From: Polytrichum commune
Taxonomy: Eukaryota; Streptophyta; Polytrichopsida; Polytrichales; Polytrichaceae
Reading direction: 5' to 3'
NCBI GenBank assembly: GCA_950295325.1
Contig: OX485806.1
Location: forward strand, 46,497,169 to 46,561,168
Length of the DNA: 64,000 bases
Of the stretch, positions 1,999 through 53,818 are shown piece after piece; the first letter of the stretch is position 1, and the number at the start of each line of letters is the position of its first letter. Below the pieces are notes generated by a model, which worked only from the letters and a program-made list of their open reading frames with translations, had not been told where the DNA came from and ran no database searches. The position numbers and the translations under genes are program-made.

Positions 1999-2006
1999 AC
2001 TACAGA
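1999..2006. repeat. Target-site duplication, left copy (ACTACAGA)
   Basis: Eight bases identical to 3858-3865. The bases just outside differ on the two sides, which fixes the length at eight. Confidence 0.75.
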
Positions 2007-3857: not shown

Positions 3858-3865
3858 ACTACAGA
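3858..3865. repeat. Target-site duplication, right copy (ACTACAGA)
   Basis: Partner of 1999-2006. LX sequence continues directly after it (TAGCTATAG, matching 36412-36420 in complement). Confidence 0.75.
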
Positions 3866-26067: not shown

Positions 26068-27735
26068 TGATGCACCCCGTGGGTCGTTCCCTTGCAATTT
26101 AGCTCAAGAAGACTCACAGTGAGACATCACGTAAATTTATATTCGCTTGAGAACTACCGTGCCTCATTAATATGTTCGGTCTCGAATTAATAATCCCTCT
26201 ATTTTCCTTATGATATGAATATAATTTTTGGAGTGAACACAATCTCATTATCTTAATTCTTACTCTCAATGTAAGGCATCATTGATAATAAGAACCATTA
26301 GATTTAAAGAAAGCTTCAAGAGGTGTAACAAAATCCTTGATAATAATATAGTTTTTAATAAGTTATATGAATCCTTAAGGTTTGTAGTTAATAAACATCA
26401 ATCACACAATTGATAGTAATCTTATAATGATGAAGAAGATCTAATATTCTTGAGTCTTCCTTTTTAAGCTCAAGTGTTACTACTTATAATATTGTAACTT
26501 GACATGTATGCATATAGTAGTTATAATTTCATACATCATTGATTGTTTTGCAATGTCACGTTTAACTTCAAAGTGTTTCTTGATGACGATAGTAATTATA
26601 ACTCTCTTGAGTTTACTCAAGAGAGAGAACTCTTCTCTTTGATAGTTGATCCTTCACTTGTGATGACATCCAACAACTCACAAAGTATCTTAAGAGAAAA
26701 AACATTTTTACTACAAAGTGTTTCTTGATGACAAGAAGTAAACCTATCTTTCTTGAGTTTTGCTCGAGAGAGAAAGAGAGAGATTTTTTCTTGAATAGAT
26801 AATCCTTCAAATTGTAATGACATCCAACAACTCACAAAGAAACTTAAAGAAAGAAGTTCCAATAACAATGGTAGTAAGTAGATTATTTCATATCAATATT
26901 ACTTCATTCATATAGATTCAAACTTTGATGTAAATTTATATCTTCATCATTCTTGTTAATCATAAAATAAGTTTGATATTCAAACATATGTTATATAATA
27001 TAATATACATAATACTTGTAAGTCAATTATGTAGTTTATGATAATAAGTTCCTCATCTTTTGAAGGAGTTCGTAATCGTTAAGAAATTTCACTTTAATCA
27101 TCCATAACATGCATATAATTCTTCAAACATACAATCACATGTATATATATATAATTCCCTTTTGAGGAGTTCAATGATAAGTTCCACTTTTGAGAGTCAA
27201 TCGTAATTCCGACGTTCAAGCTTCAATTGACGTTACTACTCATAACAACTTCTCTCAAAGTTCCATTGATACTCCAACTATTCTTGAGCGCTTTGTTCTC
27301 ACCCTCGCACTAATGCTTTGAGTTCTTTCTCAAAACACCTACTCTCCTCTCGTTTATCAATCACTTAAGTCACAAGTACCAATTGACAACTCGTAATTCA
27401 ATTTGATAAAGAGAGAGAGAAAGGTCACACACACATTTGTGGAAAAGATAGTGTATTGCAAAGGTGCTCCTAGAGGAGAGTTACAAAAAAAACTCAAGTG
27501 TTTTTAACACTCAAATTTAAGATAACTTCGTTGTGTAGAAAATGAGGTGTGATCTCCTAAAAATGCTTCCCTTATATAGTCTTCTCTTCCTAATCCAAAA
27601 TCTATTTTAAAAGCGATTGTGATTTCCACTTTTCTAAATAACTATCTATCTTCAACATATGTAGATGATTCCTATCCTAAACGGTTATAACCGTTTCATC
27701 ACCTTAATGTTCCTATTTCCAAGATTACTGTCGAG
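26068..27735 (-). mobile_element. LTR copy LB-1 (U5/R and part of U3)
   Basis: Direct repeat of 53819-55435, with high identity by eye over about 1.65 kb. The plus-strand edge TGATGCACCCCG (complement ends TGCATCA) is the LTR terminus. On the minus strand a TATA box reads TATATAAG at 27578-27571. An internal imperfect duplication of about 145 bp (26570-26700 and 26715-26850, each with GACATCCAACAACTCACAAAG) is present in both copies. Beyond 27735 the two copies no longer match. It could be the tail of a long 3' LTR reaching 29910 or a separate LTR next to it. Confidence 0.65.
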
Positions 27736-28898
27736 GTCACCTTCCACCCTCAGCAACTTAGACGGTGTAACCCGCTGCTGACCGGTTTACATGGACACTA
27801 CACTTATCTAAATTAACTTTTGAAGGTGTTTCCTCTTGGATAAATCTCTAAGGAGAAAGTAGCCTAAGCTTTCAAGCTTATGTTCCCCGAAATCCTAATG
27901 TCGAGGTTAAGTGTTATGAATGAAGAGAGTGTTCTTTTGTAATTAATAACAACATTCCTCCATTCATTTATAAATCCTCAACCAAAGTATGCAATCACAT
28001 TACTTTGAGTGTTAATTTTAACAAGTCAATGCAATGCCTTCAAGATGGAAGTTGACTACTTGATGGTCTTCAATGTTTCTTTTTTCTCGAATGATGGCTT
28101 TGCAGTTCTCTTAATGTCTTCATTCTTCTAAGGTTCCATTTTTGTCTGGTTTTCCTTTGAATTCTTTACTCATGAGAGTTTTAATCCTTCATCTTCAAGT
28201 ATCTCTAAATTCCTTGGAAGGAATCTTCTCTAATCTATCTATTCTCTCGAATGCTTAGATCTTGGAATCTCCACGCAATCTCCTTAGAATGAGCTTGGAT
28301 CTTGTCAAATTCTTAGTAACTTTTACTTTTGATATCTTGACATCTCCTTAGTTCTAAAAGGGTACCTTAGACTTCCATGGAAAAGTCCCTCTAAACCTTA
28401 GTCGTCAAAGGGGCTTCAAACTCGCGGGACCTTCGGTCTTGGGCTCACGGTCCTTCAGCGCCGTGGGCCCTCAGTCCTCTCAAAATCTTCCGAACGAACT
28501 GCGGTCTCTAATCTTTTCAATCACATCCTCAGAAACATCTTTAGTCTATAATCTTCTCTCCCACGGTCACGTGGTCCCTCAGCACTGTGGGCCTTCAGCA
28601 ACGCGGGCTCCCAGTTTCCAGACTTTAGTCTTCTTGCTCAAAACCGTCCATCTTCAAATATCTTCAAGTATCTCTAAGTCTTCGTCTTCGTCTTCGCGGT
28701 CTCGCGGTCTCTCAGCCGCGGGCCTCCAGTCTTCGCGGCTCTCGGCTCTCAGCTACCAACTGGTCCTTATACTTGAAGTCTTTCGACTTCGAGTACCTTC
28801 AAAATATCTCGGAATCTTTGATCGTCGTTCTCGCGTTTCGTGGTCTCGCGGGCCCTCAAGGACACGAGCTTTCGACTTGAAGATCGAAGAAGACGAAC
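27736..28898. other. LTR-associated non-coding sequence between LB-1 and the G1 LTR
   Basis: Two parts are visible. About 27736-28390 is AT-rich with pyrimidine-rich plus strand. About 28390-28898 is more GC-rich, with repeated CGGTCT, CTCGCGG and GGGCCTTCAG-like phrases, and is open in several frames on both strands (for example 28439-28912 plus). I read those frames as shadows of skewed composition and not genes. It probably belongs to the LTR whose right edge is 29910. Confidence 0.4.
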
Positions 28899-29070
28899 TT
28901 GCGGACCTTTAAGCAAGGCCGGCTTCGTTCGATGTTGCGGACCTTTAAGCAAGGCCGGCTTTGTTCGATGTTGCGGACCTTTAATCAAGGCCGGCTTCGT
29001 GCAATCTTGCGGACCTTCAATCAAGGCCGGCTTCGTGCAATCTTGCGGACCTTCAATCAAGGCCGGCTTC
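28899..29070. repeat. Tandem repeat, five 36-bp units
   Basis: Units begin at 28899, 28935, 28971, 29007 and 29043; the last is incomplete. Each contains TTGCGGACCTT, then AAGGCCGGCTTCG. Because 36 is a multiple of three, both strands stay open through the array. The minus strand reads repeats of a KPALIKGPQ-like 12-mer. The units abut one another without spacers. The array lies just downstream (minus strand) of the TATA box at 29142-29131, so it would sit in the R/U5 leader of the LTR transcript. Confidence 0.85.
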
Positions 29071-29910
29071 GATGACGCTCACGTAGGAATGTTGGAAATG
29101 ATTAATGAGGTGCTATAGGGGTCCGTAGTGCCCCTTTATATAGGTTTTGAAATCTTAAAATTGGTTGAATTAGCGGTTAGGTGTGGCCCCTAATGCCAAA
29201 TGTCTAAATAGGCTAATTTTAGTCTAATTTTAGGTCTGCAGGATCTATTTACAGTAACCGCACGTGTTAAATATAGATGTTCTTGTGAGATGGATTGTTT
29301 AAAGTTCTTCTTACTTCCTAGATGTGCCTAGGTGTGTTCGGTTACCATCCATGAGTCATTCATTCACAATTTCATCCTTCATTGCTTAGATAGTTAAGGT
29401 GGTTAATGTCATCCAAGGGATGGAAATCCCTCGGCTTTGTTTTTCATCCTCATCCTTAACAAGTAAGTACGTGTTCACTACTTGCTAAGTAAAGTAGCTA
29501 AGTGCTTACTAAAGAGGGCTAAGATTAACTCCTAATCTTTCCGTCCATATCCGGCCCAGTCACGTTCCCGAGGAACCCGGCTCGTTCCCCTCCTCTTAGC
29601 CCTAAAAGGACCGGCTTCCCACTCTGTCCCATCATTTCGCCGCCTCCCCGTCTTCTCGCACCAGCTCCCTCGAGTTCACAAGTACCCGGCCGTCCTGGGT
29701 ATTAACCCAGTCTTCACTCCATCCCGGGTCTCTCCCCACTGGGTCCCTCTCAAGCCGCCACCTGTCTGCCTTCTCGCTTCCTTGGCCAACGCTCCATTCT
29801 CTCTCTCTGCCCTCGGAGACGCTCCCTCGGCCATCGCTCCATCCTCTGTCCTCGGAATTCTTCACTTTGGATCTTCGCACCTACAGTTGATAGTCTTCAC
29901 TGATCACACA
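29071..29910 (-). mobile_element. G1 3' LTR, upstream (U3) part
   Basis: The edge at 29910 is defined by a polypurine tract next to TGTGTGATCAGTG on the minus strand. Inside lies a TATA box, TATATAAAGGGG, at 29142-29131 (minus). The rest is non-coding, with a pyrimidine-rich plus strand (about 29560-29840). The LTR continues leftward through the 36-bp repeats to an end I cannot fix; 26068 is one possibility. Frames at 29632-29880 and 29782-30144 overlap on opposite strands and are not genes. Confidence 0.6.
29131..29142 (-). promoter_or_regulatory. TATA box of the G1 3' LTR
   Basis: TATATAAAGGGG on the minus strand, about 770 bp from the LTR edge at 29910, a usual place for an RNA polymerase II promoter in a long LTR. 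Confidence 0.55.
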
Positions 29911-29927
29911 TTTTACTCCCTCCCCTC
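29911..29927 (-). promoter_or_regulatory. Polypurine tract of G1
   Basis: On the minus strand GAGGGGAGGGAGTAAAA stands directly before the LTR start TGTGTGATC. This is the plus-strand DNA priming site of an LTR retrotransposon. It lies 16 bp past the end of the 3' ORF and fixes the 3' border of the G1 internal region. Confidence 0.75.
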
Positions 29928-29942
29928 AGAAGAAGCATGTCC

Positions 29943-32528
29943 TCATGCTTCGAACTCATCTTGCTGGGAGGGTACTGGTAGATCTGGGAGTGGTATGCGA
30001 AGTATGGTGCCGTTATTGATGTTGCCGAATTGGCCCTTCGTGATCGTGAACTGCTGCTCCTGCATTGTTTCTGTTACATACTCCTTGAGTTGGTGTAGAG
30101 TGACGTTGGTGGATTGCTCAGGGTGGTGTTCCAGCAACCATTGATGTCGTCTCACAGCCTCGTAACAAATAGTGGTGTCCTCCCGCCGCAAGGAATCTAC
30201 AGCATGCTGGAACGTCGCCTTGTTCTCGTGTAGAAGTTTTGTGATTACTAGCTTCTGACTGTGTGTGTATGGGCGTAAGGTAGGTAGAGGTGGGCTAATG
30301 TGGTGCTCCTTTGCATGTATTGCTTTGTGTTGGGCCAAAGACACTATGCTGCGAAGGATGTACCTCCGAATGTAGAAGGGTGGAGACCCTGTTACAAGTT
30401 CGAGGATACCTAGTGGGAGTTTGAAATCACCTACTGCCCACATGAATGCTAGAGTGTCCCTTGTTCTGGAGTTAGCCCGATTCCACAATTCTTGAAACTG
30501 TACTTGCTTCAATGTGATGCCCCTCTTGAGCACAGGTAGGTTGCTTGTCACCAAATCCATTGTTCTGTAAGCTTGGTAGTGCTGCATTACCGACGTGAGT
30601 GGTTCGGTGTGCTCTAGCAGTTTGCGAAAGAACTCCGTTTTTGGGTAAATGAACGAATGTGGCAGGCTATGCTCCCCTTCCAATTGCTGCAGTAAATCCT
30701 CCTTTTCTTGTGTCACTGCGCGCAGCTCATGTCGCAAATCATTAAGGATCTTGTCTGCCGCTCCCTCTGTCAAAACCTGGCGCTCTGTGAAATCGATCGG
30801 TCGCCCCGGAGTGTGGCTGAACTCCGAATCTTGTGCGGGGATCTGCTTCCTGGCTGCTTTCAACTCCCGATTCTCTGATCGCAGTTGGGTGAGCTCTGCC
30901 CTGTCTCGTTGCTGCAAAGGCTGGGGTTTTACTGCTGCTTCCTCTTTGAGTTTGCGAATTTGTGTTTGCATAGCCTCCAACTCTGTCTCCTTTGTGTGAA
31001 GTTGGAGCTGAGTCGCTTCAAGCTTCTGGAGGTTGGCCAACGCCTCCTGATCTGTATGTACAATAGTTTGGATCTCGTTTTTCAGTCTATGTATTTCCTC
31101 TTCCTGTTCCGCTAATTGGGTTTGAGTCTCAAATGAGTGCTCTACGTAGAGATCAATCAGTTCTTCTGCATTTGCTAATTTTGCTTCCATTCTCCCGATC
31201 TGGATGACCAGAGATCCTGTCATGTCAGTTTGTGGCGAACCGGTTTGGTCCTTATCTGATGTTGTTCCTTCCTTCACAATTGCTTCTCTTTGTATTTTGT
31301 GAAATTGATAATCCAGGTTCCGCATCAGCCTGGATGGTGCCTTGCTTGCTAAAGTGACCAGCAAGTTTTCGAGCCTCCTGTGGGCATGTTTTATCTGTTG
31401 CACAATGTTGGGAATGGCCTCTGGAATCTGCCATGGTTCCTCTGTCTCAATCACCACTGAGGGTGGGGACTCGGTGGAGGAAAGTGGTGGCGTTGATTTA
31501 GACGGCCCTGCTTGAGGACCTGTTGATTTGGGGCGGACAACTCTCACCGTGGTCTGGAAAGTTGGCGGTGGCGGTGGCGGTCATGTGGTCGGTCTGCTCT
31601 TGGGTTGGTTGGCGCTGAAAGTTTTGGCTATGCGGAAACCTGCTTCCGCTTCATGCCGCAAGTTCATGGCCCCTGCTGCCTTGATCAGTAGCGTCAGGTG
31701 GGGGCCTATGTTAGTCCTTACTGCCTTTACTGAGTTTTGTAGATGTTTACGGTGTAGCTTTATGACTTCCTCATGAAGTTCTTGATAGAACTCCTCAGGC
31801 CAATCCACTGGGTGGCCATTCAAAGCTGCTAGGATCAGCTCTGCGAAAGGTATGGAAATGTAATTTTGAGCAGCTGTGTTGAGACAAAATAAAAAGTTCA
31901 AAATTTTGAGAGGCTTCTTTGCACCTGGATAAGTGCAATCTGATACCTTCACCGTCTCTTGGTTTGGAGTTATCTTGAGTGACGGAAACAACTCCGGAAG
32001 CCCCCACTGTTTGGTTGACGACCCTTTTCGACTGGTAAGTTCAAAGATATCCTGCATTTGCTTCCTCCAGTCCGGTGCCAATAGTGGAAATGTTTGGCCC
32101 TGTACTGTGGTCTTCATGGACTGAACTTGGAGGTTATCTATTGCCTCCCGAACCAATTCCTCGTGCAGTACTCCCCATGTGACTCTGGCCACGAACCCAT
32201 CCAGGTTCACCTGTTTGAAGAACTTCATCTCTTCCAAGGTAAACTGGTGGTGCTTGAGAACAGTGTCTACTACAAAAATATATCTTTCGGGTTGCTCTTC
32301 TTCCTGCTTCCTCTTCATTTGGTCCAAAAATTCTTCGTTCTGGAGTTGGATTGCGGTCTTGCACAACAACCCTTGGAGAATGTGCCACTTGCACACCTGT
32401 GGGTTCCACTGAGATTGAGATGTGTTCCAATGTACTGGGGTGAATGCTTGCATGCAAGCTACCTGCAAGGCCCTCCAAAACTCTTCCTGGTCGCTCAACT
32501 GTGGGGTGAGCTCATATAGGCTCTCCAT
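29943..32528 (-). pseudogene. G1 extra 3' ORF: coiled-coil protein of unknown function, one in-frame TGA
   Basis: One frame of about 861 codons, broken only by a TGA at 31583-31581 followed by a polyproline run. The N-terminal part (about residues 1-315) is mixed alpha-helical in look and includes PFAELILAALNGHPVDWPEE. The middle (about residues 440-610) is rich in heptad-like E/K/Q/L stretches (for example LAEQEEEIHRLKNEIQ), a likely coiled coil. The C-terminal 250 residues look globular. There is no signal peptide and no transmembrane segment, so despite the env-like place after pol it does not look like an envelope protein. It lies between pol and the polypurine tract on the G1 strand, so it is element-encoded. 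I do not recognise the family. The TGA could be a CGA decayed by methyl-cytosine deamination, or a read-through site. Confidence 0.7.
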
Positions 32529-33946: not shown

Positions 33947-34078
33947 TCATTTGTGAGTTGGTTCCCCCCCAGTTGGCTCCAAGCCAGGTAAGGCAGGGTA
34001 GGCATGGGTTGTATTCCTCATAGGTGTTGTGCTTCTCCAACTTTCTCCTAAACTTGATAGTAGTTCCCATTGGGATAT

Positions 34079-34322
34079 GGTATGTAGGTTGGTTTCTTTT
34101 TCATCCTTTTGGTCGTGCCTTATGAGGTTTAAGGTATTTTCCTGTTGTTGGAATTGTATGGTATGTAGGTTGGTTTCTTTTTCATCCATTTGGTCGTGCC
34201 TTATGAGGTTTAAGGTATCTTCCTGTTGTTGGAATTGTATGGTATGTAGGTTGGTTTCTTTTTCATCCATTTGGTCATACCCTAGGGGGTTCAAGGTATC
34301 TTTCTCTTGTTTTGAGGGATGT
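34079..34322 (-). repeat. Three 81-bp tandem repeats in the integrase tail
   Basis: Units start near 34079, 34160 and 34241 and share GGTTGGTTTCTTTTTCATCC. On the coding strand each gives 27 residues (DTLN..RHDQ.DEKETNLHTI). The first two boundaries are nearly identical, so the expansion is recent compared with the rest of pol. Confidence 0.8.
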
Positions 34323-35514
34323 ATGTGGTATACTTCTAGCATGACCCTATGCATTTCCAAATCTTCAGCATCTAAGGTTTCTTGACTTTGGTAAGAGGTG
34401 GAACCAGTGTGTGAAATGGTTTCCTTATTTGATTGAGAAGATGGGGTGATGGGAATTGGTGTAGTACTAGTCCCTTTGTATAAAGGATTTTGTTTTGCTC
34501 GTATTTCCGTTTCTAAAAGGTGGCATGCTAGAATTTGTAAGGCATAAGCCTGAGTTGTTTCAGGCTCTTGGTATGGTTTTAGTTTGTTCATGTTGACTCG
34601 TCCCAAACTGTCCCCTTGTAGGGTGGTAACATCCACTGATCCGTTATCATAGACTTGTTGAATTAGATAAGGTCCTGCCCATCGGATCTTGAATTTACCC
34701 GGTCCGGGTATCTTATGGCGTAGATGCCACAGAATTCGCTGTCCAGGATAAAATCGGGTCTTGGGTGTAGGGGTTGGCTCCGCCTCTCTAATTTTGGAAG
34801 AGTTTTGAATTGCCCCTCTCGTTTGCGTGGTATCATGTTCCTTGGTCCTTTTCTGTGGAAGCTTGATTATCTCGTGACCACACTGCTTACATGGTGTCTT
34901 CACCTTTGGCTTGTCATGTCTCTCCTTCCGTAGTAACTGCATGTGTTTCATGTTCTCCTCAGCTTCATGTCGAGTGAGATCCACCACCTTGAGTTGTTCC
35001 ATCCTCTTTTCTAGGATGGGATGAATTTCCTGACTCTGCTTTTGATAAACATCGGGATGAAGGTACGCCATAGGTAACAATGCTTCCGTCCCGAATACTA
35101 ATGAAAATGGAGTGTGCTTCGTCGTGACCTTATAGGCTGTCCTGTAGGCCCAAAGCGCTGCGTGTAACTTGGTGTCCCAATCAGTTCGATTGGCGTTCAC
35201 CATTTTGGTTAAGGCAATCTTTATTACCTTGTTGGTACTTTCCGCTTGGCCGTTGGCTTGCGGGTAGTACGTGGTTGATTTCCGGTGTAAAATCATAAAC
35301 TCTTGGGTGAGCACCTTAATAGTGTCGTTGATAAAATGACTTCCTTGATCGCTCACAAACTCCAAAGGGCATCCGAATTTTGTAATTATTTCTTCAAAAA
35401 GGAATTTGGCTATGGATTTAGCCGTGTTATCCTTTAAGGCTCTGGATTCCACCCATTTGGTGGTGTAGTCCGTAGCTGTGATAATGTACCGATTTTTGGT
35501 ACCTTTAGCTGGCG

Positions 35515-35519
35515 GGTTC
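35515..35519. repeat. Target-site duplication GGTTC, left copy
   Basis: Matches 38358-38362. Together they bound the LX LTR inside G1 integrase; the integrase reading joins exactly when one copy and the insert are ignored. Confidence 0.9.
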
Positions 35520-38357
35520 TGTGAACCCTTTGAGTGGTCCACCACTCTGCGGGATCACTTTTAGTTAGAATGTTAGCATTAAAAGTTAGAATTGATAGGG
35601 AATTTAGGAAAAATTAGTTCATTTAGCATTTAGCCTAGAAGAAGGAAGGTCAAAATGAAACTAAGTAGTGCTAGAAGATAGCAAAGTAGAAAAAATGTGC
35701 TAGCTAGTAAAAACAACTAGCTAAGCAAATATTAGTAGATGCTAGCTATTAAGCAAATGTTAGTAAATGCTAGCTAAGCAAGTGTTAGTTTATTAGTTAG
35801 TGTGAGGCACACAAGACTATTGGAGGTGTTTTACGTAAGAAGATAAAATCGGCGTGAAGACTTTTGAAGACAAAAAAGAAAGAGAGCAAGGGGGATACTT
35901 GCCCACTTGCCCCCTTGCCAACTCGATGGCGGAAAAATTAGAAAGATTTCTAAAGGTTTTTTGTCGGAGCCACCTCGGCGAGAGGGTGGCAACCTCAACC
36001 GGGAAAACCCCCGAGCCAAAATTTCGGGAAAGGGTTTGAAAAATGGATCCGGTGGAGGAGGGGTCCAACCCTTTTGTGAGAGGGTTTAAAAACCCCTCCT
36101 TCCACCTTGTAGCTCTCTCTCTTTCTCTAGTTTTTGGGCGAAGCCCTGCTTCAATGTAGTTAGGAAAAAATCCTTTAGCATGTATTCTCAATGGTCTAAA
36201 AGAAAGGCTTGAGAACCTCCTCTACTCTCTCTCTCCTAGTTAGGTTGTGTGTTTATTAACACACCAACAAAATTATTCCTTCTTTTGTAGAGGTAGGTTG
36301 GATGGTAGAGTTTTGAGTAGAGGCATTATAGACCTCATCTGCCAATGCCCTGAAGGCTTAGTTCAAAAGCTAGAACAAGATACTTATCATTTTCTCTTAG
36401 AGAGATTTCATATAGCTATCCATAGCCGTTTCCCATTTGTGATTTGGTTGAGATGACAATTAGTTATGGATTTTCAAAGATGGAGTAGAAAAACTGGGTG
36501 GTCTTGTGGGTAGCGACTGCTGGATCAGACCTGCGAGCCCAATAGGAATTTGAATTCCAAGAAATTATATTTTTCCCAAGTAGAACTTTTGTGTAGCTTT
36601 CCAAAATGGCTTAGAACATTTGATTTGAGCATGATTTGAATTAGATATGAATTGTGCAAGATGGGACACATAGTTTGAGAACTTTTGGTTGACTGCTGCA
36701 TTACAGAGGACCTGCTGGGTTCACTTCGGCTTACCTTTCTAATCACATATTTTTATCAAATACATCTTTTTAATATCTCTCCAGGGTCATATAGAACGTT
36801 TGATTTGACTAAGATTTGAATTAGATATGAATTGTTGAAGGCGAGATACATAGTTTAAGCCTTCTTGATTGACTGCCGTGTTACAAGGAGTCCGCTGAAT
36901 TTCTATTAGCTTAACCTGCTGATGTCATAATTTTTCTAATTAGAGCTTGTTCATAGCTTTCCAATGGTATAAGGAAAGCCTAGATCCAAGTAGTAAGGAA
37001 TGTGCTATGAATGTTTGAAGTTAGAAGGTAGATAGGTGGGTTGGAAGGGTCGGTTGAATCGACCTCACACTTCCAACCCTCATAACTTTTGCATTTCTTA
37101 TCCGATTAGAGTGATTTTTAGATCATTGGAAAGATAATTTGGTGCACTAAGTATAAATATTATGCTTAGGATTAAATTACAGGGCAGAATAACACTTTAT
37201 ATTTTAATTGTTAACTAAGGTACGCTTACTACCAAACTAGTTACAAAGAAGGAGGCAAGGTCGACGCTCGGAAAGTGGAGCAAGGAAGGAGGTAGCGGCT
37301 CGGCCTACATCAAGCCCAAATCAACCGAGGAAAATTGAGGTAAATTAACTAACCTTAAGCCTTCCATTTAGGATTGGAGGGAGCACGGCTAAGGTACGCA
37401 TCTCTAAACCCACTCACCTATCTCGTAAGGTCAAGTGGCTTGACCACTTGACCGCCAAGGGAGTACCCAATTCCATTGTTTTCGGGGCCCTTGGTATGTT
37501 TTGTGGTAGTAGCTTCATTTATTAGCAAGTTTCGTGTGTGGTAAGTCGGATTAATCACCGACACGACCACTCTGAATGTTGTTGGTGGAAAGGTGGGGTT
37601 AATGACCCGCGAATCCACTATTATGTTGTTGGCCCCATAGATTGGGAGTAATGGCCCCAATTTATGAAGATTGCGCAACAGGTTGAACCTACAGGTCGCC
37701 CGTCACCCTGGTCCCATTGAGTTGCATTTCGTGGTCTATCCAGTGTAAACACATTTAACAATCAAAACATACAAAATAAATCGTAAACCCTTGTTGGCAA
37801 GAGACCCGAGGTAAGGGGTGATGCCTAATATGTTAATGTAGTAAGTTAGGACGTGCAAACAAAAGTAAGTAATTAAGAAGGAATTTGTGTGAAGGGTGGG
37901 ACTTAGGCCAAGTTCCCCCGCTTAGAAAACTAAATAAAACTAAATAAAGAAATAGGAAGAATTGAATGGTCCATCAAATTGTCGTTATTCCGTTCGTTGA
38001 GTTAGGGTGGTATGAGTCACACCCGGTTGGGTGTATCAGAACCATCCCAATTCACAAATTAGGATTGCCTTGGTTTCAAGGCTGGTGCGTCTGCGCGTAG
38101 AATAGGTTGTAGGTTAAGGTTAGAACTAGATATGAAATTGGTTAGTGGAGTTTAAAGCCACACTAGTAAAAAACTAAGGCCTAACCTCCGGAGGTACTAC
38201 GACGCATATTTAATCTCCCTTAAAAATCTAACTATTCACGTTATACACCTATCATCCGGGTTCGGCTTGGGCGCCTGCAAATGCAAGCCACCTTCACCGA
38301 AGGGCTTGTGTGATACTTTTAGGCTCCCTCGAAAGGGGGTGGCACAAAAGTACCACA
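35520..38357 (+). mobile_element. LX-family LTR copy B, intact ends, inserted in G1 integrase
   Basis: Exactly 2,838 bp, starting TGTGAACCCTTTGAG and ending AAAAGTACCACA (TG/CA termini), flanked by GGTTC duplications. It splits integrase between GPVN and PPAKG. I see no coding region, no primer-binding site and no repeated ends inside, so it is best read as a solo LTR. Its interior has three related blocks near 36560, 36780 and 36940 (each with TAGCTTTCCA or a similar phrase and GATTTGA), an internal amplification. Copies A (443-4707) and C (13289-13983) are its relatives. The integration is younger than G1 itself. Confidence 0.88.
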
Positions 38358-38362: not shown

Positions 38363-41115
38363 ACTGGTCCAATGAAATCCAAACCCCATTTTTTAAATAC
38401 CTCAATGGGCATTGTGGGATGTAAGGGTTGGAGATTGGTTGAAATCTTGGGGCCAACTCTTTGACAAATATCGCATTGGGTGCAATATAAATGGACATCT
38501 CTTTTCATGGTGGGCCACCAATACAAGGCAGTTAAAACCTTGTGTAAGGTGATATTCGCCGAAAAGTGCCCTCCAGCTATTCCTTCATGAGCCTCCGCGA
38601 TAATGGCTGTAGTTATCGGTCCAGCTATGCATATCCTCCGTATACCATCGGGCCCTTCTTTTATCAGGGTCCCGTTGTAGTTTAGCATGTATGGACGACT
38701 TCGTATGGCGATTTGTTGTCGCTGCGTGGTTGAGGCTTCCGTGGTCAGCCTCCCGTGTGTTAAGTAATCGATGAAAGGTGCTCTCCAGTCCGGTTCTTCT
38801 TTATCCTTGATCGTGACAGTTTTGCAGTCAACAGCATGCTCCGGGGTTTCATTGGGCCAACAAACTCTACACTTCTTGCATAGATGGTCAATGTCCGGAG
38901 GAATTGTGGGCCACCAATAAGGCCCTTGGGTGACTTGTAAAATCATTTCATCCATTGAAAGATGGGGGTACATTTGATGGTGAATGGTGGATAACCATTC
39001 AATTCCTTCTTCTTGAGAGATACATAATTTTACTTGTCCACTTGCAAAGTCTCGCTTTAATTTTCCCTCTTCTAGGAAATAACGGGGCACTTCTGCCCGT
39101 AATGTACCCAATTCCTCATGGAAAGCAAAGTTGCTTAGTTCCATGGGATTTTTGAGGTGTTGAAGGATTGGTTCTCTCCAATCACGTGTCTTCTGATTCT
39201 GGAAGAGGATGGCCCCATAGTTCTCGATTTTAAGGCCTGACGTTGCAGTGATCTGACATGGTTTACATTCGTCAATTAAGTGGTTTACATCTGAAGAAAT
39301 GGTGGGCCACCAATACGGGCCTTTGTGTACTTGTGCAAGTACTTCTTTCCTCGTTAGATGCGGTATTTGATATTCATGTATCCTCTTCACCCAATCCTTA
39401 GCGTCTTCTTTGGCCACGCACATCTTAACTTCCCCATTTGGTAATCGATATTTCAAACCATCTTCGGCTATGAAATACGTTTCGGTGTTGAGGCTGAGTA
39501 ATCCCAAATCTTCATGTGTGCTAACGTGTTTCAACTCCTCAAAGTTCCTTAGCCATTGTATGATCGGTTGTCTCCAATCGGGCTCCAGCGTTTGTTTTGG
39601 TGGGGTTGAACTCTGACTCTCCTCGGGGTACTTACCCCGGGTCTTTGTTATTCTGCAGATTTTGCAACCTCTTAAATGGTTGCACACGTCGTTTCCCCAT
39701 GTTGGCCACCAGTACATCCCCGTGGCCACGGCCTTCCATGTTTCTACGGCGGTCAAATGAGGTTCTCTTTCCCCATGTACCTTAGCTAGGTATCTGGGTA
39801 CTTGGGTCTCGGGGATACCAACTTGATTGCTCTTTCCTCCTTTGCGTATCCGTTGTAGAGTGCCGTTGGTGAACACAAAATACTTATGGCTTTGTGTTAC
39901 TACCATTTTGACCTCTGGTGGTAATGTTTGGTCGAAGATTTCCTTGCATGTTAGGTACTCCATGTAAGGTCGTCTCCAGTCTACAGCAATCCCTCTTGGT
40001 AGGTCTTTCTGGTCCACAGGTGATGGTGTTTGCTGGTCCTTTGAAAATTCTGCTTGGTTGCTGTATACCGTACATTTCCGACGGCATAAGCCGTTAGTGT
40101 CAGCTCCACATGTGGGCCACCAATATGGTCCAAACATGACTAGGTGCCACATTGTCTCTTCGCTAAGATGTTGCCCGGATTCAGTAACATGTAGTTCCTG
40201 CAGGTACTCGTTGATCTCACGTCCCGCAATACATATCTTAATATCTCCATTCGCCAAGATTCGTTTTAGTTTCCCTTCTTCAATGAAATATTTTCGGCTT
40301 TGCCGAATTATTTCCTTGTATTGATTTTTCGAGATGCGGGGCCTTTTCAAGTATCCGTATGTGAGGTATTCTATAAGTAATTTCCTCCAATCCTTGTTGT
40401 CATGAGTTTGTACGATGACGGACCCGCAAATTATGTAATGGAGTGGGCCTCGAAATCTTCTTCGACAAGACGGACAGTCGTACATAATGTAGATTTGTAT
40501 GTCGCACAGCCCCATCGTGGGCCACCACCGATTCCCTTGCGAGCATCGAAGCCAAGTTTGTTGGTCGTCTAAGTGTCTCTGCTGGTGTACGAGCATTTTC
40601 CCTATCCAATGTTTTATTTGGTAACCAGCGATGCAAATTTTAGCCATTCTATTTTTCTCCAGTTTTTGAAGTTTTCCCTTTTCCAAAGTGAAAATTTCGC
40701 TCTCTCGTATGGTCTCCCTCTGCCCTCTTTGGGTCTCCATGTCCAATTTGAAACTTCCATGCGCCAGATATTCGACTAGAGGCGTTCTCCAATCGTTGAA
40801 GGTTTCCTTGTATGGTATAATGTCCGTCCCGTTACCAGGTTCCGAAGAGCTTGCTTCTGTTGGCAACTCTTCTCCTCGTTCTTCACACTCGGTGCATAGT
40901 GTGATGAGTAGTGAGACGTCTTCCGCTATAGTTGGCCACCAATAAGGGTCTTTAAGAACCAATTCCCTGGTGGCGTTTATGGGGAAATGCCGATTTTCTC
41001 GTATATGGAGGGTCTTGATGTAACTTCTCACATACCTTCCAGGCATACATTTCTTTGTAATGCCATTATGAAACATGCGGTGTAACTCTCCTTCAATGAG
41101 TATGAAGAAACGACT
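38363..41115 (-). pseudogene. G1 pol, part 2: zinc-finger modules 2-8 and start of integrase
   Basis: The frame continues from part 1 after a single TGA at 41118-41116. It encodes the rest of module 2 and modules 3-8 of a repeated unit, then the start of the integrase core (KKWGLDFIGPVN). A normal gypsy pol has one such unit, the RNase H-integrase connector plus the H2C2 zinc finger. Here YWWPT (RWWPT in module 3) recurs at residues 45, 183, 318, 455, 588, 720 and 852 counted from the Met at 41076. Module 8 is the canonical one (AEAHEG, GGHFS, CTQCDICQ) next to the core. The last 40 or so codons of the open frame, 38357 to 38236, belong to the inserted LTR. Confidence 0.9.
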
Positions 41116-41664
41116 TCAGTACACTACAAATTTTCTCTCTTCTTTGGGTAGGGAACTCACCCAGGGGGTTCCGTGTGTTAGACATGTCATGTGTTGGACA
41201 TATGGTGTTGTCCAATCCGATTCTGCTTTTCCTGTCATGTCTTCTTGCGCTTCCAAAGGTTGTACAGGGAGTGGATCGTCATCGTCCTCCGAATCTTGTG
41301 GGGTAATGTTCCCAGTTTCGTTTCCTTGGTCAGCAACCTTACATACCGGACATTCTTGACAGTATTCCAGTACGTCTCTTCGTCGAGTAGGCCACCAATA
41401 TGGGGTGCGTAGTATGTAATGCCATGTTGAAGTTAGATTGTAGTGTATCCCATCTTGCTCATGGGCTTCGCTTATGACTTCTTCAATGATGTCCCCGGCT
41501 ATACACTCATGTATCTTGCCGGAGATACTAACTCGCTTGAGTTTTTCGTCGTCTAAGACGAATGGCTCACTCAGTTGCCTGATCTTGTTTTGTTCTCGTG
41601 GGGTAGCTAGGGCTGACAACAATCTTCCGTGGGTAAGGTACTCAATGAAAGGTGCTCGCCAGTC
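38464..41664 (-). repeat. Eight-fold tandem array of RNase H-integrase connector plus H2C2 finger modules
   Basis: Module spans, from DW to the last Cys on the minus strand: M1 41664-41341, M2 41217-40885, M3 40794-40465, M4 40392-40072, M5 39981-39655, M6 39579-39256, M7 39183-38860, M8 38790-38464. Each has DWR or DWT, a YL-type helix, a hydrophobic Y-F-x(2)-G-x-L-x-R segment, an ICIAG-like strand, H-x(5 or 6)-H, YWWPT and C-x2-C. His/Cys sets are complete in M1, M2, M5, M6, M7 and M8. M3 has H-x3-H, and M4 has lost the normal second Cys pair spacing (CRRKC). Copies are clearly homologous in protein but differ in DNA, so this is not a recent tandem duplication. Linkers are acidic or polar. 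Confidence 0.9.
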
Positions 41665-42738
41665 TTCGAATGGTTGCACGTGAACCATGAATAAACTTGC
41701 ATCCGGAAACTGGTCTTGTACCCCTGAGGGGTCTTCTCCGCTTTCTATCCTTGATAGGTGGTCAGCCATTACATGGTTCCTACCAGGCTTATAAACTACT
41801 TCAAAATCGTACTCTTGAAGTAACAACATCCATCTCGCGATTCGCCCGGACACCACTGGTCGATTGACCAAGTATAGCAGGGCTTGATGGTCCACGTAGA
41901 ACACGAAATGGTTTGCTAACAAATAGTGTCTGAATTTGCCCACTGAGTAGATCATTGCTAGGGCTTCACGCTCCGTCGTACTATAGTTCTTCTCCGCACT
42001 GTTTAGGAGTCGACTAGCGTAATGAATTGGGGAATCTCTATCCCCGTGTATGTTCTGAGCCAAAACGGCTCCAATCGCGATGTTCGAGGCATCGCAGTGT
42101 ACGTGGAATTCCATGGTCCAATTGGGAGTTACCAAAATGGGTGTAGTTGTTAACATTTTCTTCAGTTCTTCGAAGGCCTCTTGACAAGATTTTGTCCAAA
42201 TGTACTTTTCTCCTTTCTTGAGTAATAAGTACAAAGGCCGAGTGATCTCAGAGTACATCCATATGAATTTTCGATGGTATGTAGTTTGTCCCAGGAAACT
42301 CCGAATTCCTCGTACGGTGGTTGGTGGAGGTAATCCCTTGATAACTTCTACCTTCTTTGGATCCACCAACAATCCTTCTTTGCATACCACGTGCCCTAAG
42401 AGTCTTCCTGAATTAACGCAGAAAAAACACTTCTCTGGGTTCAGGCTTACTCCATTTTCGCGGCACTTAACGAGACATTTTTCCAAATGCTCAATGTGGT
42501 CTTCCTTGGTTCCATAAACTGTAAAATCATCTAAAAACACCTTCATGAATTTGTCGAGGTAGTCGGCAAATATCTTCATCATGCCCCTTTGGAAGGTGGC
42601 TGGTGCACACATTAATCCAAAGGGCATTACCCGGTACGCGAATGCTCCGTACTCGGTGATGAAAGACATCTTCAGCTGATCTTCTAAGGCGATCATGATT
42701 TGGTTGTAGCCACTGTACCCGTCCATTAGCGTGTACAT
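41116..42738 (-). pseudogene. G1 pol, part 1: reverse transcriptase, RNase H, modules 1 and start of 2
   Basis: The reading starts abruptly at MYTLMDGYSGYNQI, the middle of the RT palm, because a CACTA fragment replaces the upstream RT. The active site is FLDD (residues 68-71), the form common in plant non-chromoviral gypsy RT. RNase H follows with its acidic residues visible: D216 in HVHCDAS, E258 in TTEREAL, D283 in YVDHQAL and D326 in MADHLSR. Then comes module 1 (DWRAPF 359 to C466) and the start of module 2 (DWTTPY 508). The frame ends in a TGA, but the sequence on both sides of the stop is collinear coding. The enzyme would copy genomic RNA to cDNA; this copy cannot, since the RT N-terminus is missing. 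Confidence 0.92.
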
Positions 42739-42745
42739 TTCGTGT

Positions 42746-45234
42746 CACTATAAGAAACCCGCGTTTTTGGGGTCGTTTTGGGGAAACGAGTGATGTCTTC
42801 CGAGATGTCACTATGTTCGGCAATAAACGCCCACAAAATTGCAGATTTTATTGGACGTTGCGTGAAACATGACAGATCATGGGCCAGGACATGGCGATGT
42901 CAGGAAGGATAGCCATGTTCTTGTGGATGTCATTTAAAACATGCTGACGTCCTGCGTCGGGCCGTTTGTAAGGCCGCTAACACCACGTCATCCCCACAGG
43001 TCTATCCACGGCATGTATAAAGTTGCGGCGGGCAGACTTAAAGTGTTGCCCGGGAAAAAAAGGTTGGAGAATGTTCAACTATGTGTGGTTGGCTATAAAA
43101 GACAAACTTGTTCCCAAAAATTTGAGGGAATGCCACATAAATTTCTCACGGTGCATCAATATGGTTCTTGGCATGCATGTTATTCTCCCAAATTCCGTTC
43201 AAATATTTGTAGCGGATGAGCCAAAAAACACGGGGGTGGTTGAGTCATTCTCTAATTGCCATAAGGTAGACATGCGGGACCACAATTGCATACCGTAGGT
43301 TCATATATAGCTGGTTCAACACATGTTAGCCGAATAATTAATTAAAGTGGAAAAATGCCCTTTGGATTAAAATAGAAAAATTATGAAATTTCAAGTTTTG
43401 CTACAAAAGGAATGTTTTCTCATTCACTTGTTTATAATTTAGTTTGTCATATGTTGATTTTGATTTCAAAGGATTTCAAAGGTTATATATTTGTACATTT
43501 AGACACGAGGAAATCAAGGGAAGACTTTTGCAAGCAAAATATGGCACTTCATTGCTCTCACAATTCCAAAAATACATGCGCCAAACGTGGGAGTGCCCAC
43601 GTTGGATCTCGTGGCCACATTCCACATATAGACGAGCAACTGCTACTGGAAAATCTTAGTGCCTAGAAAATTATGACCATCCGTCTGTTTGAACACAAAG
43701 GACGTCTCCGCGGACACCCGAGTAGACATCAGCCTTGACAGTCGGTTCCTCTCCAGCAAGGCGTCCCTTGTGACGCAACCTTATACATTGCATGCCATGT
43801 GTGATGTGACGTTGCTGTAGGTGCTTTGGGTTGTAACCACTAATACTGTGTTCCTTCGTTTTCTTCTTCCCCACGAACATCCAACGAGGCTGGGATGTGC
43901 ATGCCGCCGTCCGTTGCGGACTCTCTAGTGGGCTCTACATCTTGCATTTGTGGTTGTAAACCCACAAAGTCAGCATCGTGGCCGACATCGATTATGCGCG
44001 GTAAGGTCTGGTTGGTTTGTAATTGCCCACATCTACCCCTCACGTCCGTGCGACATACAACCTTCCATCCTGGCCTCGTCGGGTCATTGGAGAAAAAAAC
44101 TTGTTGACAATGCAATGGAAATGCAAAAGAGTTTGAGTGCACTTTGCCATCCATGCGGTTGAAGTTCGCAACGGTGAAACCATATTGATCCCGTGTGATG
44201 TTAGGGTGTCGAGGATTTGCACTTGGGCGAACCCAATCGCACACTCGCACAGTGGTGCAATGATTTCGGTAGTCTAGCTCCAAGATCTTTTCGATGTAGC
44301 CCACATACTCCTCGGTTGTCTCTATGGGTCGCCCATTTCTCAAGCCCCATGGTATTTGTCGTGTAAATGAGGCCACCACACATGAATCGCGCGTGACGAG
44401 GCCACCCTCAGCACCTCGTACTCGGAAGTGCATGCCAAACGCATACATTTTCCGGTGTGAGATTGCATATCGCTCGGGAGGTTGCGCGTATTGCGCAACA
44501 TCGACGTCCACAACTTCGCCGGAGGAACGCTGACGTGACAGACGTGACGTCAACCATGTTGCAAAGGGAGGAAGATTGTGTAGTTCCAACGGATACCGCA
44601 CTGCCAAAGTTGGATGCCGGCGGCGACACATTTTCCGAAAGGCCTCCCTCTCTTTCCAACGCGAAACTCTAGCTGCCATAAACTCCCTGCACAAGGTTGT
44701 GTGCCATTAAATTGTGGTTAGAAATGGCCCTTGCATGTATATAAAGGTGATGCAAAAGTGTGATGGCCATCATCTGCAATATCACATGTGACGGGTATAT
44801 CTCAGAGAGAATGTCATGTGGGACATCATGTCCAACACATCCTCATGCACTGCTGCATGTCACAGTTGACATGGCACATGTATTTTGCATTGGGTGACAG
44901 TATATATCATCGAGGCTTGAAGTAAAGTAAGTATGGGTTCCACTAACTCTCTGCAACGCTCCAATGACGACGCATTGTCCAAAACAAAAGCGTGCGCATA
45001 GTTGCGGAATTCGTCGGACATCTTTCGCTTTTGTTGTGAGTTGCAACGGAGAACCTCATCGTTAATGATTGCATCCTCTTCAGCGTCCCATACACGATGT
45101 GTAGTTCCTCTGTACTGATGCATGTACTCCGTGCAAAAACCAAGCGTGTCGTCCATTTGATAACCTTCCGCTATGCTACCCTCCGGATGTGCAAATGTTC
45201 GAACGTAATCTTTCAACGTTTTCATGTACCGTCC
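42746..45234 (-). mobile_element. CACTA (En/Spm) transposon fragment inside G1
   Basis: The edge at 42746 reads CACTATAAGAAACC, a CACTA terminus. It abuts RT codons of G1 directly, with TGT as the candidate 3-bp target site just outside. Within are a DUF4216 gene (43840-44694) and the end of a DUF4218 region (up to 45234), the C-terminal parts of a TNP2-type transposase, on the minus strand. The other terminus is absent: at about 45234 the CACTA coding sequence passes into G1 protease-tail sequence. So an insertion in RT was followed by a deletion that removed the CACTA 5' half together with the G1 segment between protease and RT. Confidence 0.8.
43840..44694 (-). CDS. CACTA transposase C-terminal region, DUF4216-like
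   Basis: A 284-residue open frame. The middle carries the pattern of DUF4216: SCVVASFTRQIPWG, then GYIEKILELDYRNHC, CDWVRP, YGFTVANFNRM, and a QQVFFSNDPTRPGWKVV segment. This domain sits at the C-terminus of plant TNP2-type CACTA transposases. The frame is separated by about 170 bp from the DUF4218 part at 44863, probably by an intron. The N-terminal stretch is Arg-rich (RWKEREAFRKMCRRR). The gene lacks the Transposase_21 catalytic part, so this copy is not autonomous. Confidence 0.8.
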   Translation of the reverse strand: MCREFMAARVSRWKEREAFRKMCRRRHPTLAVRYPLELHNLPPFATWLTSRLSRQRSSGEVVDVDVAQYAQPPERYAISHRKMYAFGMHFRVRGAEGGLVTRDSCVVASFTRQIPWGLRNGRPIETTEEYVGYIEKILELDYRNHCTTVRVCDWVRPSANPRHPNITRDQYGFTVANFNRMDGKVHSNSFAFPLHCQQVFFSNDPTRPGWKVVCRTDVRGRCGQLQTNQTLPRIIDVGHDADFVGLQPQMQDVEPTRESATDGGMHIPASLDVRGEEENEGTQY

Positions 45235-48069
45235 TAAGTTTAAATTCTTCACCAAGTCTTCATCTTCAACTGTCCACCCTGCTATCTTCTTCCCTTTAAC
45301 GGCTTCTGAGGCAAGGGTACGATCAATCTCTATCTCTCCTTCTTTTGCTTTGTAAAACTGGGAGGGATATACCGGTTTCTCCTCCATAGCTTCTTGTTCT
45401 TTCTTCGTTGTTTTTCTTGACCAAGGTTTCTCGGTTTCTCTTTTCCGTGCTCCAAGTTTCCCTGGTTCGTGGTGGGTATCAATCTTCACTGTGTTGCAGC
45501 TTGGTTCTCTTAGCTTTCTCAAGCTTTTCAAATCAAAGTTCCCCATGGGTAGAAGTTCTGGGAAGGCTTCATAGACTATCGCTTCTTCTTCATCGGACAA
45601 TCCCATTTCCCAGTCGTAGTCTTCCCAATTTAGGGGTCTTTTGGCCGGTGGTAGGGCCGGCGTTCTTTGGGTGCTTATCTCTACCTTGTTTCCTCCTTGC
45701 GTTAAGGTCAATTTGTTGAGGGGCCAATCATGTTGTGTTTGGGCCTCTTTTAACCATGGCCTCCCTAGCAAAAGGGAGTAACTGTCTTCGGTACTCACCA
45801 TGTCTATGATGGTGAGTGTCGTTCTAATCACGATGCCGCCAACATCCAGTCGTACGTCTCGGATGATTCCTTTGGGCATGACCTTCCTCTGGTCAACCAT
45901 CTTAATGGTAAATGGTGCGGGCTCTATCTTCTTGAGTCCTAATTTCTTCCTCAATGTGTCTGTGATGATGTTCACTCCTGATCCACCATCGATCAACGCG
46001 TTCGGTATTCGTTTATTCTTTACGATCACTGATATCATGGGCATTTCCTCATCGAATGCCTTTGCTGTCACTTGGTATGTAGAGGTCAGTTTCTCAGACG
46101 TTCCTTCTTGGCTGGTAAGGGCAGCCATTACCCGTTTCCTACAATAGGGGGCTATCTCTAGTAGTTGCCCTATTGAAATGTTGGCTCTTGTGTGATTCAT
46201 CACATTCTCTAAGATCTCATCTACCCTTGCCTGGGTAGTCTTTGGGACGCCTCCTTTCTCGGGGCTTCGTTCGTTAGGCTTCCCTGCCTCTTCTTCTTCT
46301 GGGTACCAAGGTGCGAACTCTTCTGGCGTGGGTAGAGCTTCGCCCTCTTCCTCCTGCATTTCCGTGATAGTTTTATTCACCTCCCGGTGGACTCTCCTAT
46401 CAGCTTCCCATTCATTGTTGTTGGCTCTTATCGGCCTTTCTTCTTTCTCCTTATCATCAATGTGTTCATCTTGCTCGAACACCTCCTCTTTGTCTTCATC
46501 GGGGTGTGCGTCCGGCTCGCGCACAACATCTCTCTCTTCATCAGAGTTCTCATCTCTTTGTTGGTGGTCTTCCTGCTCCTCAGAGCTGCCACTGCTCGAA
46601 TCGTCGTCATCATCATTATCGTCACTTTTGCTATCTTCCTTGCCTCCCTCGGCCGCAGCCCGTTGGGCTCTTGTCATCACACACACAGCAGGGGACACCA
46701 CGTTGGCTCCCACGCCTAGCTTAGCATTCCTGAATCCACTCAACTCCTGTTGGTGTTTGATAAAGTGCGGACAGTCCGTCTTCCGGTGTCCCTTTTGATG
46801 ACAGTAAAAACACTCGTCGGGGTTGCCATCTCGCTGAGGTACGCCAGTGTACCCAGTTCTCGGCGCTGCCTTGGTGTTGGTACTATCCATCAAGCTTCGG
46901 TTGTATTCATGGTTGATAGGTCCTCTGGGACCTCCTCGGTAGGGGTATCCATCTTCCCTCCGGTAATCTTGGCTCTTGTAGGGGTAGTAGCCTTCCCTCC
47001 TGAAGTCATCTATGTAGTTGTCATTGGGCCTATAGTATGACCGTTCTTCTCTGCGATATTCATTTCCCCAGTAGGGGCCTCCCGCCTCCCGCCGGTAATC
47101 GCCTTCCCTAAAGGGGGATCTCTCATCTCTTCTAAATTCTGTCCTTGGTTCAAACCGAACTGTTCTTTCATTTATTTCTCGCCTAGGAGTTATGGCTCCT
47201 GGCCTTCGATTAGATTGGGGTTGTATTTGGTTTACCCCATATCTTCTATCTCGGGGTCTCCGAGATTCATGCCGTTCGTAAACACACTCGCTAGTGTTGT
47301 GGGTTAAGCTGTTACAATTCGTACATTGTTTGATCTGACACTCTTGCACATAGTGTCCTTCATTTCGGCAGCGCCGACAAATTATGCCCGTTCTGAATTT
47401 CCGGCTTCCCAAAGCCAGTCCTTCTATCTCTTCTCTGAGAGTCTTGATGTCATCTTTGGTTGAGTCATTTCTTTTACTTTTTGTCTTTTTTTTTTTCTTT
47501 TTCCGTTCTTCTTCAGAATCATCGTTTGATTCATCGCTGTCACTCTCGTCATGGAATCTCCCTTTTCTCATTTGTCCTAGCTCCAATTTCCGAGCTGAGG
47601 CTTTGGCTTCGTCTAAGTCATCGGTTGGCATTAAATCGATGTGCTTGGCATACTCCTTTTTCAACCCATTGAGGAACCATGCTTTCTTGAATTGATTACT
47701 AGGCTGAGGGTGAATCTTTGATGATTCCACCATAACCCTTTCATAAAATTCTTCGACTGTCTCGTCTTTCTTTTGCTTGAGGGAGCCTAAGCTTTCAATG
47801 ACTTCTCCCTCTGATTTCTTTGATCTAAATCTCATAAGAAAGGCAGTTCCTAAAGTTGGCCAATCTGGAAAATGATTTGGGCCAAATTGGGAGTACCATT
47901 CTAATGCTCGCTTCTTCAAGGTGACTGGAAATAATTGCAACTTGATTGCATCTGTGTCTTCCTGGTTGGCAAGACACACATTGTTAAATTCTTGCATGTA
48001 AGTGTCGGGATCTGTCTTACCTTTGTAGGTCGGTAAGGGAACCTTTGTTCTCCGTTGTTGTGCAACCAT
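44860..48069 (-). pseudogene. G1 gag-protease fused in frame to a CACTA DUF4218 tail
   Basis: 1,069 residues. Residues about 10-165 form the capsid-like Retrotrans_gag region (RALEWYSQFGPNHFPDWPTL). Three CCHC zinc knuckles follow: 231-244 (CRRCRNEGHYVQEC), 249-262 (CTNCNSLTHNTSEC) and 420-433 (CFYCHQKGHRKTDC). Between the last two lies a Tyr/Arg-rich block of YRRE repeats (about 320-385). An acidic linker (480-545) precedes the aspartic protease, with ALIDGGSGVN (D694) and LLGRPW (767-772). At about residue 946 the sequence switches to DUF4218 of a CACTA transposase (RYMKTLKDYV, then EGSIAEGY) and runs 124 residues to the stop. Gag packages RNA and the protease cuts the polyprotein. The frame stays open upstream of the Met to 48312, so the true gag start was probably in the leader. 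Confidence 0.88.
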
Positions 48070-48317
48070 GTTGGCTGAATTGGGTGGGTTGTTTCCAACA
48101 CTGGGTGGATTATTTCTCTTGGCTGGTGGTGGGCTGACTCCGGTGTTAATTCCAAGGTTTTGGAATTGCTTAAGTTTCTCTTCAAACTTTCTTCGTAGTT
48201 CGTCAAATTCTTCTTGACTGATGGGTCTTTTTACTCCTAGGTCCGTGTTATCTTGTGTGCTCTCTCCGGAGAAGCCGGAGTCTTCAAAGCTAAATTGTTC
48301 TTCAAAATTTCGTCAAA
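48070..48317 (-). other. G1 gag N-terminal extension, cut by G2
   Basis: The gag frame is open from 48312 to 48070 on the minus strand (includes SFEDSGFSGE and EEFDELRRKFEEKLKQFQN), with an in-frame TGA at 48315-48313 right at the junction with the G2 LTR. The missing start probably lies beyond G2, at 57583 and higher, where the same strand reads YEQLQQEIEREEKNSRF. Confidence 0.6.
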
Positions 48318-48323
48318 GTAAAA

Positions 48324-49419: not shown

Positions 49420-49423
49420 TAAA

Positions 49424-49441
49424 TGGTGCGTCCGCCGGGAG
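49424..49441 (+). promoter_or_regulatory. G2 primer-binding site, tRNA-Gly-like
   Basis: TGGTGCGTCCGCCGGGAG lies four bases after the LTR end. It is complementary, with about one mismatch, to the 3' end of plant tRNA-Gly(UCC) as I remember it (CCCGGCAGACGCA plus CCA). This site fixes G2 in plus orientation. Confidence 0.6.
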
Positions 49442-51897: not shown

Positions 51898-52023
51898 TTC
51901 TCAAGACGTTAGATTTATGGATGGTGTGATGGATGTTCATTATGATGACACGCTTCTTTTCCCAATGGGATTGGAGAGGAGCAAGGTCAATGGCCTCCAC
52001 ACACCAATGCCATCACTTATAAA

Positions 52024-53798: not shown

Positions 53799-53815
53799 CC
53801 CCAGCATGGTCGCCA
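53799..53815 (-). promoter_or_regulatory. Primer-binding-like site next to LB-2
   Basis: TGGCGACCATGCTGGGG on the minus strand, four bases after the LTR end TGCATCA. Near-identical strings stand at 57758 (TGGTGACCATGTTGGGG) and 56092 (TGGCGACCATCGGGGG). It resembles the TGGCGACTC...TGGGGA sites of Tat/Ogre-type elements. I do not name the tRNA. Confidence 0.6.
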
Positions 53816-53818
53816 AAA

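Follow-up and report, generated by a model that had tools for sequence, protein, structure and literature searches.

The number of integrase chains that an intasome needs varies among retroelements from four to sixteen, and why it does so is, to our knowledge, an open question. Three described systems bear on the N-terminal parts of these proteins. The N-terminal extension domain (NED) of Ty3 stabilises contact with the LTR and reportedly binds TFIIIC (PMC8632968). In the MVV intasome, N-terminal domains (NTDs) of many of the 16 chains contact both DNA and protein (PMC9065133). The NED of PFV integrase is described as essential for complexing viral DNA, yet as playing no part in in vitro activity (PMC3738965).

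Here we describe a pol gene in which a unit resembling such a head occurs many times. In a 64,000-nucleotide stretch of Polytrichum commune DNA (hereafter, the window), the minus-strand pol of a Ty3/gypsy element carries eight head units between RNase H and the integrase core (41700-38446; Table 1), within the Ty3/gypsy order of reverse transcriptase (RT), RNase H and integrase. The translated minus-strand frame 42738-38363 runs from RT through RNase H and the eight units to the start of the integrase core, with a single in-frame TGA (41118-41116) within module 2. Counted from the DW motif through the position of the last cysteine, each unit spans 108-111 residues; linkers of 23-41 residues join the units, and the eight YWWPT/RWWPT blocks are spaced 132-152 residues apart. 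The translation and the blocks bear out the preliminary description, which had proposed an eight-unit tandem array in a gypsy pol, with a period of about 132-152 residues and a frame open except for one TGA.

Table 1. Features of the array-bearing element in the window (window coordinates)
Feature	Coordinates	Strand	Remarks
ORF: reverse transcriptase end, RNase H, module 1, start of module 2	41116..42738	-	
Module 1	41323..41700	-	Adjoins RNase H; HHCC complete; acidic type
Module 2	40867..41253	-	HHCC complete; contains TGA 41116-41118
Module 3	40450..40830	-	L for first H; found by module profile, without Pfam match
Module 4	40045..40428	-	Y for last C, as in L025
Module 5	39637..40017	-	HHCC complete
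Module 6	39238..39615	-	HHCC complete in window copy
Module 7	38842..39219	-	HHCC complete
Module 8	38446..38826	-	Ordinary integrase NED-NTD adjoining catalytic core
Inserted repeat parting module 8 from integrase core	35520..38355		Self comparison
Integrase core and C-terminal part of pol	33947..35545	-	rve match
Gag and protease ORF, DUF4218 (CACTA-like) fragment at its end	44860..48069	-	
Third ORF	29943..32528	-	Two frames in window (31581-32528 and 29943-31547); end in LTR-homologous region
3' LTR	27729..30647	-	Homology to LTR of L044-L046; limits approximate

Scanned singly against Pfam Integrase_H2C2, five of the eight window modules scored above the cutoff (m1 41.0, m2 29.8, m5 28.1, m6 29.6 and m8 57.1 bits, the m2 value being that of the post-stop part of module 2 only), two fell below it (m7 23.5 and m4 16.9 bits) and m3 gave no match. 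The same array scanned as two ORFs yielded 1 + 6 stretches (E up to 1), and the modules of L009, another copy in the host genome, divided in the same way as those of the window, with five above the cutoff, two below and one without a match. Where about eight matches had been predicted and one or two would have counted against the array, seven modules were matched, five of them above the Pfam cutoff. Module 3 of the window was recovered by a profile made from the window modules, and m3 of L009 has all four zinc ligands. This profile detects all eight window units by construction, and its matches in other copies are not circular. The complete H, H, C, C set is present in six of the eight window modules, as originally counted. 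The "altered spacing" ascribed to module 3, where L replaces the first H and another H stands two residues further on, turned out to be a change of the window copy alone among 19 rows, and the odd ligand set of module 4 (Y for the last C) is a rare change, present in L025 as well (2 of the 18 distinct rows).

Profile matches also led us to correct the nature of the unit, which had been taken for a linker plus H2C2 zinc finger and looks like a whole integrase head, made up of NED and HHCC domain. A profile of window m1 and m3-m8 matched PFV integrase at residues 31-106 (E ~7e-8) and Ty3 pol at E 0.03. When the profile was made from the seven extra modules of L009, with the canonical one excluded, it matched PFV integrase at residues 29-105 (E 2.6e-7), and Ty3 was absent among its matches up to E 0.1. 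Residues 29-105 of PFV integrase comprise part of the NED and the whole HHCC domain, so that each unit resembles such a head. Both the profile similarity to solved integrase heads and the four ligands of the integrase NED-NTD (HHCC) were found. The seven extra modules of L009 have in common D-W, W-W-P-T, a cysteine preceding the helical part, and both His and both zinc Cys residues; all four zinc ligands are invariant there. A cysteine in the C-I-A-G region, beyond the HHCC set, is invariant in these seven modules. Mean net charge varies by position: m3, m4, m5 and m8 are basic, m1, m6 and m7 acidic, and m2 near neutral. All seven linkers are less conserved than the modules that flank them (12 copies; m1, m7 and m8 taken to end three residues early).

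The host assembly (64 contigs, 407.8 Mb in all, with lengths of 42-78 Mb for the seven contigs concerned here) contains many copies of the array, which rules out a single-copy accident. A genome search with modules 6-8 gave at least 157 matches, with open frames of up to 3,716 codons, and 34 further stretches (20 + 4 + 5 + 5) were examined besides the window. Eight modules, as in the window, were found in 17 of them (L009-L019, L021-L024, L028 and L038), eleven in three (L020, L026 and L027), and five in four (L029-L032). Another four (L033-L036) represent sister families with one module, whose RT is 53-57% identical, and the remaining six are truncated or decayed, namely L025, which is cut to six modules, L037, a decayed remnant, and L039-L042, whose arrays, of the eight- or five-module type, are cut or decayed. 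The module number, at first thought to be fixed at eight, is thus 5, 8 or 11 across copies. Spacing between RT and module 6, about 2,273-2,306 bases in the eight-module form, is 3,522-3,547 bases, as in the eleven-module form, at eight places (hand arithmetic; one spacing is estimated, and two of the places are a tandem duplication). The frame from RNase H through the array is open over 2,646 codons in L009. Frameshifts occur in the arrays of L011-L013, stops in those of L013, L016-L018, L023-L028 and L030, among others, and insertions inside those of L028 and L038. Nearly identical and in inverted orientation at a distance of 14 kb, L011 and L012 resemble a segmental duplication. Five-module places, classed by RT identity, number at least 9 of 24 on contig C4, against 3.5 expected from length. 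A NAC-domain query of the host genome gave 28 exon matches, corresponding to about 14 genes; this suggests a land plant or close relative poor in NAC genes and perhaps outside the seed plants, although a single query can overlook members, and a seven-chromosome moss would be a guess.

Every module is under purifying selection. Pooled dN/dS, calculated with a codon bootstrap over five disjoint pairs, none of which is a duplicate of the L011/L012 type, was 0.10 for m1, 0.17 for m2, 0.13 for m3, 0.18 for m4, 0.29 (0.22-0.38) for m5, 0.22 for m6, 0.19 for m7 and 0.07 for m8, and the upper bounds of all modules were at most 0.38. The corresponding values for the core (0.03) and for RT/RNase H (0.05) are pooled over three of the five pairs, because the RNase H and core sets exclude L025, L028 and rows with more than three stops, and the core set also the window; L038-L042 and L044-L046 lie outside the dN/dS sets. 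Pairwise NG86 estimates, taken both inside groups and across them, had median dN/dS values of 0.05-0.31 over all modules and of 0.01-0.05 for RT/RNase H and core, for which the five-module set gave 0.08 (a single pair) and 0.03; these medians include L011/L012, and many of the underlying dS values exceed 1 (saturated). The selection suggested in the preliminary description is supported, with modules 2-7 all far below 1, and a relaxed or pseudogene array is ruled out. The array is beyond chance, given dN/dS well under 1 in every module and long open frames elsewhere. Selection of this kind means that the modules matter and says nothing of what they do.

The zinc ligands tell a similar story with exceptions. 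Among distinct rows, all four are kept in 16/16 for m1, 14/14 for m2, 14/16 for m3, 15/18 for m4, 16/18 for m5, 13/17 for m6, 16/17 for m7 and 19/19 for m8, and in the five-module family in 4/4 each for b1, b2 and b5 and 3/4 for b4. The ligands of m6 are lost in L022-L024, L026 and L027, with one lost in L025; in three pairs of this subfamily, m6 has dN/dS of 0.12, 0.41 and 0.37. Module b3 (L029-L032) has no recognisable zinc ligand set. Zinc is therefore not needed at every position, and the ligand-less m6 and b3 modules, which are alignable and fairly conserved, are possibly zinc-free scaffold units. Frameshift-split modules (L011 m4, L012 m4 and L013 m3) and pieces shorter than 110 residues were left out of the ligand counts, the median dN/dS and the module tree.

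This tree, built on few columns from 95 of 163 distinct modules and with 31 of its 92 inner branches starred, showed that modules cluster by position: the 16 labels take 17 changes, and after shuffling 71.7 on average. Modules m4-m8 each form one group, with support of 86 for m8 and starred for the others. m8 and b5 make up one starred set, which shares a common starred branch with m1 and b1; m6 pairs with m7 (starred), b4 attaches to that pair (94), and the branches of b2 and b3 are long. The extra modules of the eleven-module copies, a1-a3, nest in the m1, m2 and m3 groups, which indicates that modules 1-3 were doubled as a block to give the eleven-module form. In L015 and L016, modules 1-3 group with a1-a3, and such mixed module types are a sign of recombination between arrays. 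Several copies are very similar: the eleven-module L026 (C3) and L027 (C2) are 99.74% identical over 7.8 kb, the eight-module L010 (C3) and L014 (C4) 99.0% identical over 8.5 kb, and two LTR pieces of an eight-module copy on C4 (1,059 and 1,184 bases, on either side of the LTR middle) show one difference in 2,243 compared bases. Such close likeness between copies on different chromosomes, and between the LTR pieces, points to recent movement, and both array sizes, eight and eleven, have probably moved recently.

The remainder of the element is less regular. The upstream gag matches Retrotrans_gag above the cutoff (1.5e-9), and the protease and zinc-knuckle matches are weak and below theirs. 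Within the gag-pol of the window copy, at 43840-45100, there is a DUF4218 match and, by eye, an ORF like a CACTA transposase, for which Pfam gave no match. Pieces of the repeat inserted before the integrase core recur at 443-4709 and 13287-13981 in the window self comparison. In copy L044-L046, the paired LTR pieces are 99.9-100% alike, no target-site duplication was seen, and a 26-base stretch adjoining the LTR is identical to window 53795-53820. This primer-site-like stretch shares 14 of 18 bases, counted by eye, with the tRNA-Asp type; the Athila-like branch has a primer site of the tRNA-Asp type. A direct pair at 26068-27726 and 53819-55428 is 86% alike, and its right member adjoins 53795-53820. 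The pair was rejected as the simple LTRs of the element, since the LTR of the young copy matches from 27729 onward instead.

Copies of the five-, eight- and eleven-module kinds have a third ORF beyond the end of pol. In L044 it is a single frame of 926 residues (L044:481-3261) with coiled-coil-like matches; no Pfam family matched it above the cutoff, two matches lay below, and scoring of 8,000 candidates brought out 26 relatives. The ORF has 96 matches in the genome, none of them beside the four one-module places compared by eye, where a distant form could escape. About 235 of its codons fall inside the LTR, which thus carries coding sequence. Elsewhere in the window, a plus-strand element (48314-57582) with its own protease-like ORF adjoins the gag of the minus-strand element and has LTR-like ends (48314-49419 and 56473-57582) that are 97.6% alike. 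Tandem repeats of five 36-base units (28894-29073) and three 81-base units (34076-34318) are located in the LTR region and at the end of pol, respectively. Rfam and tRNA scans of the window found nothing.

Related proteins exist in public data. Two protein searches returned 12 and then 8 proteins (3 new), 15 in total, whose modules lie, by best match, at the same positions and in the same order as in the host arrays. Two of them hold module 1 alone, P0010 is without module 8, and none of the 15 spans a whole array. The first 12 have best identities of ~64-96% to the examined stretches, which are part of the host's copies, so some of them may come from other species. IMG/VR viral contigs gave one weak locus (34%). 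No description of such a multi-head array was found among the open-access papers listed.

These elements are best explained as a lineage of plant Ty3/gypsy retrotransposons in which the integrase head has multiplied in tandem to 5, 8 or 11 position-specialised units. As judged from sequence, it is nearly an even question, leaning slightly to the negative, whether the extra heads are a multivalent integrase arm in cis, for which the LTR contact of the Ty3 NED (PMC8632968) and the many NTDs of the MVV intasome (PMC9065133) are precedents; the preliminary description had likewise proposed an arm that could bind LTR ends or RNA, or choose target sites. Such heads would constitute a flexible arm for LTR-end binding and intasome assembly, in which the basic heads (m3, m4, m5 and m8) may grip several points along the LTR ends or the cDNA, and the acidic heads (m1, m6 and m7) may touch further chains of integrase. 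A task for which retroviruses recruit extra integrase subunits would then fall to one polypeptide, and module number would shift through block duplication and recombination. We also put forward, as a tentative and somewhat doubtful idea, that a multi-subunit intasome scaffold is built into the integrase itself in cis, with up to 11 specialised NED-NTD heads per chain, block-duplicated, and with a 1/5/8/11 series in one genome. Some observations count against the multivalent arm. The PFV NED, though described as essential for complexing viral DNA, reportedly plays no part in in vitro activity (PMC3738965). Of the eight positions, three are acidic and a fourth is near neutral, which fits simple DNA binding poorly. 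Zinc ligands are missing from b3 of the five-module family and from m6 of one subfamily, where the constraint on m6 is weaker in two out of three pairs (0.41 and 0.37).

The main rival to an LTR-binding arm is targeting, in which the extra heads read target sites or chromatin and the arm tethers the integration complex, with one partner per head. Strong divergence of the heads between positions combined with conservation from copy to copy, and a net charge that varies with position, would suit this reading, as would the reported TFIIIC binding of the Ty3 NED (PMC8632968). The genomic distribution speaks against it: the eight- and eleven-module places (at least 42) are spread across chromosomes much like the one-module places (at least 60), C4 excepted, where classing by RT identity puts at least 11 of the 42 (6.1 expected) and at least 11 of the 60 (8.7 expected). 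We consider targeting unlikely. The linkers between the compact modules are variable (23-41 residues) and several modules are basic, which would also be compatible with cleavage by the element's protease into free small zinc proteins, such as nucleic-acid chaperones or packaging factors. Gag, however, already has zinc knuckles (weak matches) and the acidic modules are constrained too, and we regard this release as improbable. Finally, module number varies between families, modules 1-3 are block-duplicated and L015/L016 have mixed types, all of which might be expected if the array were a non-adaptive product of repeated recombination, kept because it is harmless. This explanation is already disfavoured, and we judge it very improbable, as pooled dN/dS is 0.07-0.29 with upper bounds of at most 0.38 in all eight modules, ligands are mostly kept, and frames are open to 3,716 codons.

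The selected head arrays suggest an unexplored way of building a machine for inserting mobile DNA. An integrase domain regarded as single-copy can turn into a tandem array with position-specific conservation, and the 1-, 5-, 8- and 11-head relatives in one genome amount to a natural experiment on intasome chain number. A close point of comparison is found in this same genome, where the one-unit Ty3/gypsy elements L033-L036 share the order of RT (53-57% identical), RNase H, linker-H2C2 and integrase core, but have one unit in all four cases examined, against 5, 8 or 11 in the array families. With the NED-NTD of the integrase of the spumavirus PFV, the modules share a profile alignment to residues 29-106 that includes YWWP, H, H, C and C; PFV has one such head per chain and gains more through multimerising (PMC3738965), whereas the array has many per chain. 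HHCC domains of integrase origin have also been captured away from integration, in ZBTB11 and other host proteins; in ZBTB11, the domain is part of a host gene and stands next to a BTB/POZ domain (PMC12062965), and the array heads lie inside a retrotransposon pol. The 16-subunit MVV intasome resembles the array in bringing many NTDs into one complex (PMC9065133), a likeness of function that we infer; there the NTDs are supplied in trans by many identical chains, whereas in the array they are divergent heads joined in cis.
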